A stretch of 64,000 bases of DNA from Methylophaga thiooxydans DMS010. Lineage in GTDB: Bacteria; Pseudomonadota; Gammaproteobacteria; Nitrosococcales; Methylophagaceae. The notes under the pieces were generated by a model. That model was not told the origin of the DNA and made no database searches. It saw only the letters and a list, made by a program, of their open reading frames with translations. This document shows positions 21,408 through 63,524 of this stretch, piece after piece. Positions within the stretch are counted from its first letter, which is position 1. Each line of letters opens with the position of its first letter. The stretch is taken from contig NZ_GG657892.1 of the NCBI RefSeq assembly GCF_000156355.1, forward strand, positions 123,704 to 187,703, in the 5' to 3' direction. A program made the translations under genes and the position numbers.

Positions 21408-23022
<1,615 letters not shown>

Positions 23023-23039
<17 letters not shown>

Positions 23040-23253
23040 GATCTTTTCTTGCATCCCGTAATGCCATTACTCGAACCAAATCAAGCAATATTTCACGTTT
23101 GTATCTTTTCTTTATTTTTTCAGTAGTAATAGGCCAGTCGTGTTTCGATAATTTGTATGAAAGAGAATTACTATCCAGCCATGAGATAAACTTTCTTTTT
23201 TCATAGCACGCAACGCAGTCACATAATTTTTGTGATGGCTCCAACCTACTCAT
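23023..23253 (-). CDS. small hypothetical protein next to the recombinase
   Basis: This 76-residue basic protein (MSRLEPSQKLCDCVACYEKR) has a CDCVAC cysteine cluster near the N-terminus that might bind a metal. It overlaps the recombinase start downstream and the next small ORF upstream by four bases, so the three look like one transcription unit. No family is recognised. A recombination directionality factor is one possibility from position and size, but nothing in the sequence proves it. Confidence 0.55.
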
Positions 23254-23471
23254 GAGTTCACTCCGAATCGTGAACTGATGAATAGCCGAGTTCCAACTGC
23301 ATAAGGTTTAGTGTTGATGGATGGTGGCGGCCATATTAGAGAGGGGATTAGATAGTTTTCCCCATGGCTTAGAGATACTTCAACATCAGTAATATACTGA
23401 TTAAGTAATAGAGGCTCTTCATTAGTATAGAGAGCGTTGATGCTTTTAACCGTGATAATAAGTGAATACAT
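23250..23471 (-). CDS. small hypothetical protein, first gene of the recombinase unit
   Basis: The start at 23471 (MYSLIITVKSINALYTNEE) follows a strong AAGGAG with correct spacing, which supports a real gene of 73 residues. The nine codons upstream in the open frame have no such signal. Its stop overlaps the start of the following small gene, and the recombinase follows that. No domain is recognised. Confidence 0.6.
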   Translation of the reverse strand: MYSLIITVKSINALYTNEEPLLLNQYITDVEVSLSHGENYLIPSLIWPPPSINTKPYAVGTRLFISSRFGVNS

Positions 23472-23527
23472 GTGTTCTCCTTTTATTCTCTGGAACAAGA
23501 ATAAAATTACATGCTTCTCACATTGAA

Positions 23528-23774: not shown

Positions 23775-24734
23775 TTACGCAGTAGAACCACCGATCTTGG
23801 CTTTGGTGTTAGCTGGAACACGTCCTTTGTCAGGTTTTCTGCCATAGTTGCTAATAAGTACTTGTTTGAAATCAGCATTTTTTACTGTTCTGATACGAAC
23901 ATTATTCATGGTGGCTCTTGAAGGGCAGGGTAGCATCCGACCTTTGCCACTTCGACTGTCCCCGTATCCATTAATGGAGTCGACACTTTGATGGCCTAGT
24001 ATTGCTGCACTATAAATGCGGCCATGACTGCTACTTTTGAGATCACTACCCAGTTGATGCCGAAAGGATTTAAAAGTAATGTGTTTTTTCCGCCTTGGGA
24101 AAAGCTTTTTATTTAGCCCATCCAATCGTTTTTGTAACATGCCAACAGCATTCATTTCTGTTTGGTGAGGCTTAAGCTTATCGAGCTCCTTTTTCATCTG
24201 TTTTAAGGCAACAGAGAAAACCTTGAAGACTTCATCATCCAAATAAAGATGTCTATCCATGCCTCTTTTACCATCTTCAGTTTGCTTCGATCCTTCTATG
24301 TAGATGCCATTATCAGGGAGAAGTTGAATCGACATCATTTCAGAGGGACGACACCCTGTAATGCGTACCACGGCGATGGCTCCGGCTAGGCTTAAGTCAG
24401 GCACTCTTTTAGACATGCAGCCCTTCAGTAAGGCGTTACAGTCATCATTGGAGACTTTTTTTATAGAGGAACCAGGTTTTTTATAAAGGGCGCCGTCAGG
24501 AAATTTTGTCGCCTTGATGAACTTAGCTTCATCGATAATGCCTCGCTCAAGGTAATAAACCTCAAGTGCTCTTCTTTTTTTATTCCATGAGCCATAACCC
24601 GGTGGGTTATCGTCAAGAGCATGATCGATTAATGCTTTATGGAGTTCTTGGACATGTGGGTTGGTTGTGCCAAGTCGACTCTTAATAAAATTCTTAGCTT
24701 GAGATAGATAGGCTTCTCTCGTTTTCTCTTCCAT
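23775..24734 (-). CDS. tyrosine recombinase/integrase
   Basis: This 319-residue protein has an N-terminal helical SAM-like DNA-binding part and a C-terminal catalytic domain. The first arginine is in VVRITGCRPSEM. The second block reads TFKSFRHQLGSDL, where the usual H-x-x-R has lysine at the histidine position. The third is AILGHQSVDSINGYGD, with the tyrosine nucleophile. The substitution is tolerated in some family members. It sits back-to-back with a serine recombinase module, so the region may be two nested elements or one element with two recombinases. Confidence 0.82.
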   Translation of the reverse strand: MEEKTREAYLSQAKNFIKSRLGTTNPHVQELHKALIDHALDDNPPGYGSWNKKRRALEVYYLERGIIDEAKFIKATKFPDGALYKKPGSSIKKVSNDDCNALLKGCMSKRVPDLSLAGAIAVVRITGCRPSEMMSIQLLPDNGIYIEGSKQTEDGKRGMDRHLYLDDEVFKVFSVALKQMKKELDKLKPHQTEMNAVGMLQKRLDGLNKKLFPRRKKHITFKSFRHQLGSDLKSSSHGRIYSAAILGHQSVDSINGYGDSRSGKGRMLPCPSRATMNNVRIRTVKNADFKQVLISNYGRKPDKGRVPANTKAKIGGSTA

Positions 24735-24881
24735 AGTGGATACCTTGTATTAGTGAACTTGGTATCTAGATTAGCCTTAATGCAAAGATGGCTTTGTCGT
24801 TTATGTCACAGTTTCAATAGCCAGTTGCCTATAAATTAAAGTGAACTATCAATGACACTCGTCATCTTCATTTAACCTACT

Positions 24882-25062
24882 GATGCCTTCCATGTACAGC
24901 TGACTTCAGGGCTCACCAGTATCCGTTGCCAGCAACGTTACTGGCGGAGGATAAACCCTCTCGCCCTACATACTTCCCCGTTTTTATGAGCGTTAATGCT
25001 ACAAATATTTATCGGGGAAGTATGTAATCAGGAAGTCAGCAATAGCTCATGGTAGAGGCATC
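24882..25062. other. structured intergenic element with nested inverted repeats
   Basis: The 439-base gap between the recombinase and ATPase genes holds a compact structure. Outer imperfect arms at 24882-24907 and 25032-25062 share GATGCC and GCTGACTTC in opposite orientation. Inside are a hairpin at 24916-24944 (CCAGTA/TACTGG and CGTTG/CAACG), a hairpin at 24943-24965 (GGCG and GAGG arms) and a perfect 13-bp inverted repeat ACATACTTCCCCG (24968-24980) with its complement at 25013-25025. No ORF of note overlaps it. It could be an attachment or recombinase-binding site, a transfer or replication origin, or a structured RNA. Confidence 0.65.
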
Positions 25063-25173
25063 TTCATTAGAACACGTAAGCAGGTACGTTAATGTGTCAT
25101 CAGTGAAATCTATCGACTTTAAGTTAACGTCATGTAGATCACTGATATAAGCTATTTGCATTAGGTAGACGCC

Positions 25174-26277
25174 CTAACTAATGTTCGCCAGAAAACCAAT
25201 GCCAGCATTTTGATGTTGCTCATCTTTTTGTATACAAACATCTTCAGGCCGAACAACGATAGGCCTAGGCTCTGAAAAGCATCTGGAGGCAGCAGTGGCC
25301 AATGCATGTAGGAGTTCATGCTTCATTTGCCTTGGCGCTAAAGATGCAAACGCATTAATTATCAAGTCATCCAATTCTTTGGCAAAGTGCTTGCCCCAAG
25401 GATGGCTATCAATCAATTCCTGATAAATAGCTTTGACAACCTCTCTGGATTGAGCGGCACTAGGAGCTTGAACTCTTATCTCAATCATTCGTGAACGAAT
25501 CGGGGGAGGAATATGGTCAGGCTCATTAGCGGTTGCTACCCATATCACATTGCTGAGATTCATTGGGATGTCTAAATATTCATCTTTATAGCTTCTGGCT
25601 GTGTGAGTTTCGAGCAAACCATACAATGGGCCCAATGGATCAAATCGTGAAGCTGCAATCACCTTGTCGACTTCATCTAACATAATGATGGGGTTGGCAT
25701 AACGACTTCTTCTGATGCTTTCGCTAATAAACCCAGGACTACTATCACTCCATGAGCAGTTGCCACCGTTGAGGATAAATCCTGAACTAATTGTCGAAAA
25801 GTCCAGCGAGAAAAAGTCAGTGCTAAGCACTTTCGCAAGCTCTGACATAAACCGTGTTTTACCAATCCCGGGCGGACCCGTTAGCAATACTGGGGGCAAG
25901 CAAATGATTTCAGGTGATTCCAACCTAAATAGATGCAAATGGCGCTTGCATAAGTCGATAACGTCTTTGAAGTTAGCAAACTGACCTTCTAACGCATCTA
26001 GCTTCGAAAGTAAGCTATCTTCAATTGTGGCAAACCCCTTCCAGCTGGATTCTTTATACAGTGCTTTCAGAATGTCTTTTCTGCTTGAGCGAAACTCGCT
26101 TTTGATAGCACTCAATACATCATCATGTTTGAAAATATAGACACCTGTACCCGTTGGCGGTAAGTCATCAATATCCTCGGACTCGTAGAGGTCTGGATCA
26201 GAATAATCAAATGGGTCGGTAAAAGCGGGTTTCACCAGGTTTTCGTCGATAAGGTCTCTTAGTGATTTTTTAGTCAT
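25174..26277 (-). CDS. Lon-like AAA+ ATPase without protease domain
   Basis: I start at ATG 26277 (MTKKSLRDLIDENLVKPAF), which follows GGAG; the longer frame runs into the neighbouring gene. The 367 residues contain Walker A TGPPGIGKTR, Walker B IIMLDEVDK, sensor 1 and an arginine finger in VIWVATANEPDHIPPPIRSR, resembling the AAA+ module of Lon. The Ser-Lys protease domain is absent. In mobile elements such stand-alone ATPases may remodel replication or recombination complexes; no specific role is known here. Confidence 0.82.
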   Translation of the reverse strand: MTKKSLRDLIDENLVKPAFTDPFDYSDPDLYESEDIDDLPPTGTGVYIFKHDDVLSAIKSEFRSSRKDILKALYKESSWKGFATIEDSLLSKLDALEGQFANFKDVIDLCKRHLHLFRLESPEIICLPPVLLTGPPGIGKTRFMSELAKVLSTDFFSLDFSTISSGFILNGGNCSWSDSSPGFISESIRRSRYANPIIMLDEVDKVIAASRFDPLGPLYGLLETHTARSYKDEYLDIPMNLSNVIWVATANEPDHIPPPIRSRMIEIRVQAPSAAQSREVVKAIYQELIDSHPWGKHFAKELDDLIINAFASLAPRQMKHELLHALATAASRCFSEPRPIVVRPEDVCIQKDEQHQNAGIGFLANIS

Positions 26278-26339
26278 GTGAACTCCAAAGCTGAATAAAT
26301 TCTCCCTCCATCCACCCGGATAAAGGGAGGTACTGCCAT

Positions 26340-26795
26340 TTACTTCAGTTTCGAGAGCTTCTTTGCCCATTTTTCACGGATGTCGTAGATGTCTGCAGTC
26401 CAGCCTTTAGGGCCTGGACGTTGTCCCATTTTTCCTTCATCCCACATCTTTTCCACAATTTCTGCTTCATACTGCTTACGACGAAGGAATGGTCTGAGTT
26501 TCTTAATGGCAGATAGAGCGTGTGTAATGTCGTAAACCAATGCATAGGATTGCCGGTTACTGGTGCTATCTCTTTTTAATTTGGCAATGAAACTGGACTC
26601 ACCAAGGATGGTTTGTACCTCTTCAAGCACTTCACGATTGTTTTGTACTACCGAAAGCTTCAGGCGATGACAAACTCCCTCACGACCTTTGTACTTTTGT
26701 TTTGCAATGCCAATACACCCGTCGCCATCAACAAAGCCAGCGGCCCAAGCGAGAGATAAAAGCACATTTAAGTTAAAAGTATTTTCAGAGTTCAT
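26340..26795 (-). CDS. LAGLIDADG-family homing-endonuclease-like protein
   Basis: This 151-residue protein has one LAGLIDADG-type motif, LAWAAGFVDGDGCIGI, at about residues 15-30, with the acidic residues kept. Single-motif proteins act as homodimers, so it could be an active free-standing homing endonuclease or a domesticated DNA-binding relative. AAGGA precedes the start. No intron or intein host gene is evident nearby. It lies 20 bases downstream of a 17-bp palindrome that may be its operator. Confidence 0.83.
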   Translation of the reverse strand: MNSENTFNLNVLLSLAWAAGFVDGDGCIGIAKQKYKGREGVCHRLKLSVVQNNREVLEEVQTILGESSFIAKLKRDSTSNRQSYALVYDITHALSAIKKLRPFLRRKQYEAEIVEKMWDEGKMGQRPGPKGWTADIYDIREKWAKKLSKLK

Positions 26796-58619: not shown

Positions 58620-61600
58620 ATGAAAGACGAACTTTCTAACCAGTCATTAAGTTACCCTTGTGAATTCTCTTGTTTCTCTCCGAATATTTCTGGGAGCACT
58701 GTTACACGAGATACCATGATTAATACTATTGAATTGGCATATAGCAATGGTGAAAAGGCAATACTCATTTCTGGTGATGAAGGCATGGGGAAAACAGTAC
58801 TTCTCTCCCAGTTTCTTGAGAAAAACAAGAGCAAGAGTTTCTCACTTTTCTTAGATGTCACAAATAAACAATCGTACTTTGAGCAAAACTTAGTCCGTGA
58901 TATATACAGACAAGTACATTTCAAACTCAACGGCAAAGACTGTCATAACTTTGAAACGATAAATCAGGCAGATCTGATCTCTCTTTTCTATTCATTACAA
59001 GTGGCATTACAAAAATATCAAACAGAAGCATTTTTCATTGTAGATGGGTTGGATGATATTCCTCCTGAGGATGATTACATCGTTGAAAGTTTGATGTCAG
59101 TAATGCCTTTGAGTGATAAAAATATAAAATTTTTATTCTCTACGAAATCGAAGTCTCTTGAAAAATATCTCTCAAATGTGAATTTCAAGACAGTAGAAAT
59201 GATGCTGTATTCGCATCCGGAGGCTATGTCTGCGCTTCCAAAGCTATCAGCAACTGAAGTTGAAGAAGTACTGAGCGTTTACAGAGGTATCCCTGAAAGG
59301 ATTGAACAGGTCAGAAGATTAATCGAGAGTGGATTAACGGTCGAAGACGTTATAACTATTCATAGTGAAAGTAACGAGAGTCTTCTGAAGGCTGAATGGC
59401 AGTCTATAGGTGAGCTCGACCAGATTAAATCTGAAATATTGCCGTTAATTGCATTCAGTGAATGCTCACTATCATTAAGTGATCTGTCTGAAATAACAGG
59501 ACTTGAATCAGAAAAAATTATAGCAACCTTACAATCCATCACTTTTTTAGATTCTAGTAGTCCGGTAATTAAGTTCTTCTCTAATGCTATGAGAGACTTT
59601 GTAAGGAAACAGTTATCTAATGAAAAATCACAATCATTGAGAAAAATCATTGCCTATTGGTCAGCTCATCCAAATGATGCAAGTGCGATTACAGAAATAA
59701 CATCTCATAGTCACATTTTAGGTGACTACAGTTCGGTTGTAGAGCAATTATCAAACAGTAATATTCTGACAATTTTTAATGAAACAAATAGCGTAAACGG
59801 AGTTAGCAGACAAGTGAAGCATGGGCTCAACGCCGCTTCTGAGCTAAATTCTGAACTTGATGTTTTCCGGTTTGCACATGTCCACTCCTTCATGACAGGT
59901 ATGAAAACGTCGAGATTACTCGAGAGCGAACTACTGTGTCATTTAAATCAGAACGATTATGAGTCTGCACTCGGTCTGGCAATTGCTTCACGAGTCCTAG
60001 AAGAACGTCTGCATTTATTAGCAACAATAGCAACACACCAGAAACAAAAAAAGGACAGTGTTGACGAAGGTCTTAAAAAAAGGATTATGGAGGACTTCTC
60101 AAATATTAATTCAGAGTATCTGGGGGTTGATAGAACAATTGAGCTTGCTTCACGCTTATTTACGGCATTTCCAGAAGAGGCATTATCTTTGATAAATGGT
60201 GTCGATTCATTAGAACGAGGAGGTGGAAATAAAGCTGACTACGCATTTTTTAGATTTTCTTTGGAAGCTTTAAAAAATGCGTCTGGTGACGTTGATAAAA
60301 TCATACAAGGGATTGAAATTAAGGAGGATAAGAAGCGAAATGCGTTGAATATACTTGGGCTGTTCAAAAAGGGAACTCCTCCGGAGAAAATAATTTCTTC
60401 TCTCTCAGGGTTTGATAAGCCAGGCGATGCCATCTATGTGTTAAGAAGTTGGATCAATGCATTTCCAGAAAGTGATGGGATATACCTTTTGGTTAAAAAA
60501 TTAATTTCCCTAGTTATTTCGACTACAGACTATCATGCCAATGCATCTCTCTACGCGGATATTAGTACATCACTTAATCACATGAGAAAGCCTCAAGGGG
60601 TTGAAATACTGAATAAAATATCTCCAAGACTCGATGACCTAAAGTCGTTTGGACCTACTGTAGATTATGTGAGACTCCAGTGTAACATCTTAAAATTCGA
60701 GATAAAGCATGGTTTGTTAAAAAATAGAGACATAGAATTATATAAATTTATTTCAGAATGTATTGAGGATGCATCTATCAAGTTATCTTCTCTGACCTTG
60801 CTTTATGTTCAGTTTAACGAGTTACAAGAAAAGACAAATATCAACCTGAATACTGTTAAAGACCTTAAAGAAAATGTTTTTGAGCAAATAATTGGTAACA
60901 CTGCAGATCAATATACTGCTCTAAAAGATGCTCTGCTAAACGAGTTGCAGGTGTCTTATGACAATGCAATTTCTTGGGCAAAAAGACTAAACAATCAAAG
61001 AGCCATTGATAAGGCCATTGCAATGGTCATACATGAGGCTTGTGATTTGGAGGTTGAGCTTCAAATCAGCAAAGTTGAACAGCACATCAGAAATATAAAA
61101 GACAAAGATTACAAAGCCGATACTACTATACATTTGTTTGAACACCTTTCTGAGAGTGGTATTCAAATATCAAAAGCTGATTTTCATAGATTAGTTAAGT
61201 TAAGAAATAGAATCAAAGATCATCTATCTAATACCCAGATTAATTCTTGTTTGCTCGAAATTATGAAAAAAAGTTCTCTTCAACTCGCTGAGAAAAGAGC
61301 AACAATTATTACCTCACTGGAGGAGTCTTGGGATGGACTAGATGGTAACTGGCAAAAAATCGATGTCGCTTTTGATATTCACAACAAACTATTTAAGACG
61401 GAGCCTGAGGTTGCACTTTCTTATAAAGATAGAGCTATTGACTTAAGAACTTCAGAGAACGCTGTATCAGCTTCGGAAATGTATGCGCGTGCCTACTCTA
61501 TAGACCTTGCAATTCGTTCTTTATTTCAGCTATGTAAGTTCAACCTTCAATCTAATAAAGACTTAACGAACATAGTTGAACTCATATCAACTGTCCCAGG

Positions 61601-63524
61601 AAAAAATGTTCGTATTAGATTATTTTCAAGGCTGGCTTCTGCACTTCAACTTACAGATCACTTGAATGAGTTCCAACGGATTGTAGAGAGTTTTCTGCTT
61701 CCAGAAATTGATTCATTAGGCGATGGATATAGTCATGAGCTTTCTGTTGCTATTGTACTTTGCGGCCCCATTTTATTCTCATACAGTCAGGAAATATTTA
61801 CTAGAAAGTTGGATTACATCGCTCAAGATGTAGACCGCTATGACAAGGCTCTCTATCACACTCATAAGTACCTGATTACTAAAAACCTGATTCATGATCC
61901 ATATGAGCCCGTTAAGAAAAACAAATTTAAGTTATCGGCAGTAGATCTTGAGAAACATTTATTTGTTGTGAAGAAAATTCGAAAAGATACAATGGTTTAC
62001 GGTGTCTTGTGGGCAATTGTGAAAAGGATCTCGCTTGGCAAAAAAAACAATGAATTTAGCAAGCCTCAGTTATCAAATTTTGCTAGTGAACTAGATAACA
62101 TAATTGGTAGTGCGTTCATGAAAGATGGAGACATCCAACATGAGGGATACAAGATATGTTGTGAGGCGCTTAGACTTAGTATCCTTGGCGAAAAATCTAA
62201 AGTGATCTGGGGTAGGTTAACTGAGAGAGCTCGCCGAATACCTATTCACTCGGATAAAGTAATTGTACTTGGTGAAATCATCGAATTTATGCCGAGCTCT
62301 ATGGCAGACTTCAAAAAATCCCTGCTTGATGAGGCCGTAACAGTGGTTTACGGAGTAGTGAGCAACTTGGAGCAAATATCTAGGTTCGAATATTTAGCAC
62401 AGCAGGGCCAAGATTTAGATAAGTCCAGAGTGAAAAGATTCATCAAAGATGCTGTATTGTTATCTACATCAGAGGATACAAATGATTTTCATGAAAAAAG
62501 GTTAAGTCTAATTGACTCTGTTGACTCCATGGATAAGGAGTTTGCGAGTGGTTTATCAGCATTATTTGACGATGATCCAGCAAGAAAGAAAATCATTGAA
62601 AAGAATATTCAGCAAAAACAAAAAGAGAGGGAAACAAAAGATCAGTTTAGTATTTCAAGTGATGAAATCATAAAACATTCAACTTCTAGTAAATACCCCT
62701 CTCATATATGGGGGTTACTAGGGAAGATGAATGCGGCTAATCACATACCTGATAAAAAAGCTGATTACATCAAATATATCTACAGCATCTCTGATTACAA
62801 GCCTGTCGATGCATACCCTATGCTGAGTTATTACATCAATGCACTCAGCTTTACCACCTCAAACAAGCAGATGGTATCTTCAACATTTAGGCCAATTTTT
62901 GATGTGATTATTCAAGATAATCAATTATTCGCATCACTATTTGAAACACAAGCTAATATCCCGGCCAAACAGAGTCAAACTCAGTCACAAATTGTTTTCA
63001 GCCCAAATCAGTCTGAAGCTGTACTCGACTTTTTCTCTCAGTGGATCTCTAAAGATGAGAAAGAGGAGATACTAATTGTAGATCCATACTTCACCCATGA
63101 AGATCTTGACTTCGTCGGCACAGTCATAAGAAAAGATCCGAACTTCATGATACGCATCCTGACTAGTTACGCAAATATAAAGAAAATGACTAACAATACG
63201 GATGATGATGTGGCGGAGGTTATCAGAAAGTATTGGAATGAAAACATTATTTCTGACGTGATTCCTGACATAGACGTAACTTTCTGTGGACTCTCTAGTA
63301 TTGGAAACATCATGCCGATTCATGACAGGTGGTGGCTAGCAAGCACAAGTGGACTTCGATTAGGTGGTTCAATCAATGGGGTTATGGGTAAAAGAATCTC
63401 TGAAATTTCAGAAATGCAACATGATGAGGTCCTGAATGTCGAGGAAAAAATAAAAGGGTATGTTAATGCTACCCAGAGAATGCACAATGATGAAAGACTG
63501 AAGTATATGAGGGTTTCGATTTAG
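58620..63524 (+). CDS. giant STAND/NACHT-like NTPase with C-terminal PLD-like domain
   Basis: A 1634-residue protein with an unusual layout. Residues 20-270 form a P-loop NTPase: Walker A GDEGMGKT (52-59) and Walker B FFIVDGLDD (138-146), the D-G-L-D form common in STAND/NACHT ATPases, then a probable winged helix. Residues about 350-1440 are a long helical solenoid without clear repeats. Residues about 1465-1600 resemble a phospholipase D-like domain: IVDPYF (1487-1491 region), then IHDRWWL with His1568 and LRLGGSINGVMGKR. The HDR form replaces HKD lysine by arginine, so catalysis is uncertain. By analogy with Avs-type proteins, sensing would be by the solenoid and an effector at the other end. 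The start follows AAGGA. Confidence 0.78.
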   Translation: MKDELSNQSLSYPCEFSCFSPNISGSTVTRDTMINTIELAYSNGEKAILISGDEGMGKTVLLSQFLEKNKSKSFSLFLDVTNKQSYFEQNLVRDIYRQVHFKLNGKDCHNFETINQADLISLFYSLQVALQKYQTEAFFIVDGLDDIPPEDDYIVESLMSVMPLSDKNIKFLFSTKSKSLEKYLSNVNFKTVEMMLYSHPEAMSALPKLSATEVEEVLSVYRGIPERIEQVRRLIESGLTVEDVITIHSESNESLLKAEWQSIGELDQIKSEILPLIAFSECSLSLSDLSEITGLESEKIIATLQSITFLDSSSPVIKFFSNAMRDFVRKQLSNEKSQSLRKIIAYWSAHPNDASAITEITSHSHILGDYSSVVEQLSNSNILTIFNETNSVNGVSRQVKHGLNAASELNSELDVFRFAHVHSFMTGMKTSRLLESELLCHLNQNDYESALGLAIASRVLEERLHLLATIATHQKQKKDSVDEGLKKRIMEDFSNINSEYLGVDRTIELASRLFTAFPEEALSLINGVDSLERGGGNKADYAFFRFSLEALKNASGDVDKIIQGIEIKEDKKRNALNILGLFKKGTPPEKIISSLSGFDKPGDAIYVLRSWINAFPESDGIYLLVKKLISLVISTTDYHANASLYADISTSLNHMRKPQGVEILNKISPRLDDLKSFGPTVDYVRLQCNILKFEIKHGLLKNRDIELYKFISECIEDASIKLSSLTLLYVQFNELQEKTNINLNTVKDLKENVFEQIIGNTADQYTALKDALLNELQVSYDNAISWAKRLNNQRAIDKAIAMVIHEACDLEVELQISKVEQHIRNIKDKDYKADTTIHLFEHLSESGIQISKADFHRLVKLRNRIKDHLSNTQINSCLLEIMKKSSLQLAEKRATIITSLEESWDGLDGNWQKIDVAFDIHNKLFKTEPEVALSYKDRAIDLRTSENAVSASEMYARAYSIDLAIRSLFQLCKFNLQSNKDLTNIVELISTVPGKNVRIRLFSRLASALQLTDHLNEFQRIVESFLLPEIDSLGDGYSHELSVAIVLCGPILFSYSQEIFTRKLDYIAQDVDRYDKALYHTHKYLITKNLIHDPYEPVKKNKFKLSAVDLEKHLFVVKKIRKDTMVYGVLWAIVKRISLGKKNNEFSKPQLSNFASELDNIIGSAFMKDGDIQHEGYKICCEALRLSILGEKSKVIWGRLTERARRIPIHSDKVIVLGEIIEFMPSSMADFKKSLLDEAVTVVYGVVSNLEQISRFEYLAQQGQDLDKSRVKRFIKDAVLLSTSEDTNDFHEKRLSLIDSVDSMDKEFASGLSALFDDDPARKKIIEKNIQQKQKERETKDQFSISSDEIIKHSTSSKYPSHIWGLLGKMNAANHIPDKKADYIKYIYSISDYKPVDAYPMLSYYINALSFTTSNKQMVSSTFRPIFDVIIQDNQLFASLFETQANIPAKQSQTQSQIVFSPNQSEAVLDFFSQWISKDEKEEILIVDPYFTHEDLDFVGTVIRKDPNFMIRILTSYANIKKMTNNTDDDVAEVIRKYWNENIISDVIPDIDVTFCGLSSIGNIMPIHDRWWLASTSGLRLGGSINGVMGKRISEISEMQHDEVLNVEEKIKGYVNATQRMHNDERLKYMRVSI

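Follow-up and report, generated by a model that had tools for sequence, protein, structure and literature searches.

A covarying stem-loop element beside a MobK-related recombinase gene, a candidate transfer origin of an integrative island in Methylophaga thiooxydans DMS010

Introduction

The structured element at 24870-25070 of the analyzed stretch of Methylophaga thiooxydans DMS010 DNA (64,000 nucleotides, here called the window) is probably the transfer origin (oriT) of an integrative mobilizable element, and the protein encoded at 23775-24734 is probably its relaxase, of the MobK kind; the assignment is drawn from sequence comparison. Of the functions offered in the initial annotation (attP with arm sites, transfer origin, replication origin, structured RNA), transfer origin is the best supported: on islands and on small plasmids, the same fold accompanies proteins related to a tyrosine-recombinase-type relaxase. 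The observations are the fold, its covariation, its association with one protein clade, the kinship of that clade to MobK and the borders of the island.

Structure of the element

The coordinates of the element and of its surroundings are given in Table 1. The nested inverted repeats are real and lie far beyond chance. The folding energy was -81.6 kcal/mol (z -7.9) for the plus strand and -88.5 kcal/mol (z -7.5) for the minus strand, and none of 200 dinucleotide shuffles was as good in either case. The minus strand gives the best reading of the structure: an outer stem (P1), the long P2 hairpin, whose arms are CATACTTCC/GGAAGTATG, and two small hairpins closed off together. In P1, GATGCCT pairs with AGGCATC (7 bp) and GCTGACTTC with GAAGTCAGC (9 bp); P2 is formed by TACATACTTCCCCG and CGGGGAAGTATGTA. 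The covariance model described below matches the window at 24897-24981 with 70.3 bits.

Table 1. Features of the element and of the neighboring part of the island (window positions).
Feature	Position	Strand	Evidence or remark
attL, last 14 bp of tRNA-Met	21471-21484	+	Exact repeat at contig 191901-191914 (attR, beyond the window)
Serine recombinase adjoining tRNA-Met, proposed island integrase	21441-23054	-	Pfam Resolvase, Recombinase, Zn_ribbon_recom
sm72, small conserved protein beside the putative relaxase gene in the island family	23250-23498	-	BLASTP
Tyrosine-recombinase-type protein, proposed relaxase of the MobK kind	23775-24734 (stop 23775, start 24734)	-	hhalign, family HMM, alignment
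Whole structured element, candidate oriT (possibly also encoding RNA)	24870-25070	-	Fold z-scores; relatives with equal architecture
P1 outer-stem arm: GATGCCT 24882-24888 and GCTGACTTC 24899-24907	24882-24907	-	
P3 closing helix, 24963-24966 with 24909-24912, enclosing hairpins A and B	24909-24966	-	Covariance-model match
Hairpin B	24915-24946	-	Inside P3
Hairpin A, loop TTTAT	24947-24960	-	Inside P3
P2 long hairpin, 14-bp arms 24967-24980 / 25013-25026, 32-nt loop with GCATTAACG (minus strand)	24967-25026	-	
P1 outer-stem arm: GAAGTCAGC 25032-25040 and AGGCATC 25056-25062	25032-25062	-	
AAA ATPase gene, recurrent neighbor in the island family	25174-26370	-	Pfam AAA, 3.8e-17
LAGLIDADG endonuclease gene, usually paired with the AAA gene	26340-26795	-	Pfam LAGLIDADG_1, 3.6e-9

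Every part of the nested arms that had been described between the recombinase and ATPase genes is present, the two small hairpins included. The perfect inverted repeat has the 32-base spacer reported for it, and its arms are 14 bp long, not 13 bp. The neighbors are of the kinds given in the initial annotation; the minus strand carries both the tyrosine-recombinase-like gene and the AAA ATPase gene. The statement that no gene explains the structure holds for the gap 24735-25173, in which there was neither an ORF of at least 80 aa nor an Rfam family above its gathering score (searched at gathering and relaxed thresholds). No further copy of the element reached significance within its own genome, and no DNA similarity to it was found in the plasmid, phage and E. 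coli collections.

Relatives of the fold and covariation

A DNA search of related genomes gave short matches in three genomes of a neighboring genus, and further loci (denoted L) were picked through relatives of both neighboring proteins. Seven copies share one anatomy, namely P2 with CATACTTCC/GGAAGTATG arms and a variable loop, followed by P3 closing hairpins A and B; the loop of hairpin A is TTTAT in most copies. A covariance model of the second half added one good copy and two weak ones. Diverged copies, missed by every sequence search, lie upstream of other recombinase relatives, as in L142 (CCCCCATACTTAC-TCGA-GTAAGTATGGGGG, then GGTGTT...AACACC). The P1 outer stem pairs with differing sequence in L146, L147 and L142, being entirely different in L147 (AAAGACAGC/GCTGTCTTT) and L142 (GGATACCC/GGGTATCC), and could not be seen in all copies.

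A mechanical scan of the sense strand for the CATACTT hairpin, covering at most 7 kb of upstream sequence at each of 17 recombinase relatives, returned 15 raw matches, with 0.74 expected from the background rate on unrelated loci. Twelve of these, in 12 island loci, were accepted as the element and about three are chance-like. In the 12 loci the CATACTT/AAGTATG arms of P2 are conserved on the same strand as the recombinase relative. The arms are imperfect or altered in L143, L144 and L151, L145 has no convincing CATACTT hairpin, and L137 was too short for the scan. At the more distant protein relatives L225, L226 and L228 the hairpin is absent.

The covariation analysis that had been proposed for homologous regions came out in favor of the structure. 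Across 15 copies, both sides change at all 18 pairs of P2 and P3 (12 of 12 and 6 of 6, respectively), and 247 of 270 cells are paired, which none of 5,000 re-dealings of the 3' letters reached. For the pair counts the arms were placed by hand, because MAFFT misaligned one divergent copy and the P2 loop, which is variable; given this manual placement and the relatedness of the copies, the covariation is strong but does not amount to a calibrated probability. Lack of arm conservation among homologous elements had been named as the outcome that would speak against the structure; conservation was seen for the long arms as well as for the fold, and the outermost GATGCC arms are no general feature of the copies.

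A degenerate copy of the candidate oriT was seen at L188:9400-9620 (genome G042) beside an integrase remnant, adjacent to an apparent recA-alaS-lysC locus, and is seemingly what is left of a decayed island.

The fold on small plasmids

In the protein search of plasmids, the closest relatives of the 23775-24734 protein came from plasmids with sizes of about 2.3 to 3.7 kb, among them pIGRK (mobK). Four plasmids of 3.1-3.7 kb have an architecture equal to that of the element upstream of their recombinase relative. On pPS1M3, CCATACTTACATATT...AATATGTAAGTATGG and then GGGGTGTT...AGAACCCC precede the relaxase-like gene; pPDDCC3357-6 has CCATACTTGA/TCAAGTATGG, then GGTGT...ACACC; and in pW11NP1 and a 3.7-kb Klebsiella plasmid the hairpins are of the CATTATC and CATTATT types, after which comes GGTGTT...AACACC or GGGTT...AACCC.

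Among more distant relatives, the proteins of L204 (Agarilytica plasmid pSU3), L227 and L229 are longer (about 540-770 aa) and resemble MobK in their C-terminal part, and on pSU3 a TraD/TraG-type coupling protein gene follows directly. Judged by sequence, these proteins are candidate relaxases of whole conjugative elements.

The adjoining recombinase

Kinship of the 23775-24734 protein to the proven relaxase MobK exceeds the general similarity among tyrosine recombinases. The family HMM gave pIGRK MobK 96 bits and the elements' own integrases 11.5 bits or less, the reverse test with an HMM of those integrases gave MobK 0.8 bits, and the hhalign profile comparison with MobK gave 99% (E 2e-18). 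By profile the protein groups with MobK and not with integrases. In an alignment of 15 sequences R129, K150, R225, H248 and Y257 are invariant and H226 is nearly so, which gives the family the catalytic pentad RK(H/Y)RH and the nucleophile tyrosine. Position R-3 (the box II histidine) is Y in most relatives and in MobK, and K in the window protein and in L143. About 95 N-terminal residues, to which no Pfam family matches, precede the catalytic part. The single-sequence AlphaFold model of the recombinase had a pLDDT of 36.7, too low for conclusions on its structure. No relatives of the recombinase were found in viral contigs.

Island borders and gene content

The island measures 46.7 kb. Its borders are the two copies of the 14-bp att repeat, which matches the 3' end of tRNA-Met; synteny with relatives breaks off at 21484 and is restored past the distal copy. 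The island thus forms a delimited unit that has att repeats and an integrase of its own, as expected of an integrative mobilizable element. The recombinase adjoining the structure is not the island's integrase, a role for which it is not needed because a serine recombinase and the att borders lie at tRNA-Met. Neither T4SS nor HUH relaxase domains were found among the ORFs scanned, which come from the part of the island inside the window.

Islands of the family elsewhere have a separate integrase at a tRNA gene and a small conserved ORF between integrase and recombinase; in some, an excisionase-like ORF (phrog_13517) is located there. In the window the serine recombinase at tRNA-Met occupies the place of the relatives' integrase. 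The relatives have integrases of the tyrosine type at various tRNA genes, and the proposed integrase of the window island is a serine recombinase located at the 3' end of a tRNA gene; this suggests an exchange of the integration module. The protein sm72 shows 41% identity over 59 aa to L136:7257-7475 (BLASTP) and recurs in L138, L139, L143-L146 and L149.

Relatives of the AAA ATPase are encoded near the putative relaxase gene in L140, L141, L144, L146 and L150. The AAA and LAGLIDADG genes (25174-26795) overlap, and the pair recurs in at least four other loci (L144, L152, L153 and L154) and also at loci without a visible CATACTT hairpin; the two look like a separate two-gene module. A wide contig scan with the AAA protein returned mostly Lon-like proteins and was uninformative. 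The island also contains, at 58620-63524, a gene for a 1634-aa NB-ARC/NACHT-like ATPase, possibly an antiphage STAND protein.

Comparison with known systems

MobK of the Klebsiella pneumoniae plasmid pIGRK is a proven tyrosine-recombinase-type relaxase, which nicks its oriT in vitro and requires Y179; the minimal oriT, mapped by deletion, comprises 186 bp just upstream of mobK (PMC8152469). The two systems share a relaxase of this type with RK(H/Y)RH and Y residues, a multi-hairpin oriT or candidate oriT upstream, and an occurrence of the family on plasmids of 2-4 kb. MobK, at 242 aa, has no N-terminal domain and lacks the roughly 95 additional N-terminal residues of the 319-aa window protein, and the pIGRK oriT has AGCGA repeats and no CATACTT hairpin, whereas the window element has the hairpin and no AGCGA. 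Ten of the 15 copies contain the motif (13 occurrences in sense and 1 in antisense orientation), and it is regarded as a feature of pIGRK rather than a defining trait of such oriTs.

SGI1-type islands, compared by way of the published descriptions, are chromosomal mobilizable islands, as the window island would be, with int, a separate tyrosine-recombinase-type relaxase and a stem-loop oriT upstream of it (PMC6414798, PMC9299015, PMC8409611). Their oriT lies upstream of mpsA and has three stem-loops that are strictly conserved despite sequence divergence (PMC8409611). MpsA of SGI1 needs a separate MpsB, whereas the window protein has its N-terminal region in a single chain; SGI1, which is dependent on IncC plasmids, is inserted at trmE, whereas the window island is inserted at tRNA-Met. 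TcpM of pCW3, as far as it is described in the papers on those two systems (PMC8152469, PMC9299015), is also a tyrosine-recombinase-like relaxase with an adjacent oriT; unlike the window island, pCW3 is a conjugative plasmid of a Firmicute (Clostridium perfringens).

Proposed function

Like an oriT, the element is a cis element with conserved stem-loops upstream of a relaxase-like gene. Only mobilization suits tiny plasmids as well as single-copy islands, and this, with the precedent of the SGI1-type islands, is why 24870-25070 is read as a putative oriT. The coupling protein gene on pSU3, and an att-bounded island in whose scanned cargo ORFs no T4SS domain was seen, also count in favor. From the comparison we infer recognition and binding of the element, nicking at a nic site, a helper and transfer. 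The island would excise via its own integrase, the relaxase would recognize the CATACTT hairpin and the adjacent junction, its tyrosine would nick one strand, and the nicked strand would pass through the conjugation channel of a helper element. The acting form of the fold may be DNA, extruded or single-stranded, or RNA, or both of these. Counted against an oriT are the window copy without AGCGA, L225, L226 and L228 without the hairpin, and the roughly 95 extra N-terminal residues; a branched conserved fold also suits RNA.

Alternative functions

The structure could instead be mainly a small RNA for mobilization, similar to the sgm-sRNA of SGI1, with a DNA oriT beside or inside it; by this analogy SGI1, whose transfer requires an RNA encoded between oriT and mpsA, would be the model (PMC9299015). 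The fold is branched, covarying and on the sense strand, with a recurrent TTTAT loop, and the minus strand folds better. Set against this are the lack of an Rfam match, the SGI1 stem-loop cluster, which is the oriT and lies outside the functional sRNA core (PMC9299015), and the comparable pIGRK region, which is an oriT by deletion mapping (PMC8152469). We consider a mainly RNA function unlikely; a structured RNA alongside the oriT is possible.

That the element serves the adjacent tyrosine recombinase, acting ordinarily, as a recombination site (attP or multimer resolution) is very improbable. The protein retains the catalytic residues of tyrosine recombinases, and the P2-loop core GCATTAACG recurs among copies, with a similar core repeated in genomes G006 and G017. 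The core is absent, however, from copies with short hairpins, the protein clusters with MobK and not with integrases, multimer resolution is unnecessary for single-copy islands, and the att sites lie elsewhere, one by tRNA-Met, where a different integrase is encoded, and one at 191.9 kb. The attP proposal of the initial annotation was accordingly dropped: the borders are at 21471-21484 and contig 191901-191914, not within 24870-25070, which places the attachment site at the tRNA-Met 3' end, 3.4 kb away.

The cassette-like GCATTAACG sites in G006 and G017 were considered as an integron attC-like array and rejected, there being no recombinase relative and no attC core pair. The 16-mer TTGTCGCATTAACGTA, similar to the P2-loop core of several copies, forms spaced minus-strand repeats at L187:9806 and 10275 (G006) and at L186:8125, 11788 and 12289 (G017), which adjoin glnD, lie near AAA/LAGLIDADG genes and may be an attachment or protein-binding site of another element. 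A retron was also rejected, as no reverse transcriptase was present among the neighboring genes scanned.

A replication origin is unlikely because the plasmids that bear the fold carry unrelated Rep proteins (RepL, Rep_trans and another). The position between two co-directional genes in the window would fit a leader or other regulatory RNA acting on the recombinase mRNA, or a terminator belonging to the ATPase gene, but either is hardly credible. At other loci a distance of 1.4 to 5.1 kb separates the element from the gene, and the intervening genes are in part on the opposite strand (L136, L138, L146), so that it is no simple leader; moreover, L138, L139 and the plasmid copies have no AAA gene upstream.

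Significance

To our knowledge, only three tyrosine-recombinase-type relaxases have been studied so far, and they were described as mutually unrelated. An environmental island family and several cryptic plasmids, all typed as "non-mobilizable", are now placed with MobK. The putative transfer origin of these elements gains a recognizable covarying fold, which can serve as a model in searches for hidden oriTs, and proteins annotated as "integrase" on such plasmids become testable candidate relaxases. It is conceivable, if rather doubtful, that a structured RNA encoded at the oriT is part of the transfer complex of all tyrosine-recombinase-type relaxases, on 3-kb plasmids as well as on chromosomal islands, and the sgm-sRNA of SGI1 would then, by analogy, be one case; the question of RNA in the transfer complex is made directly testable.
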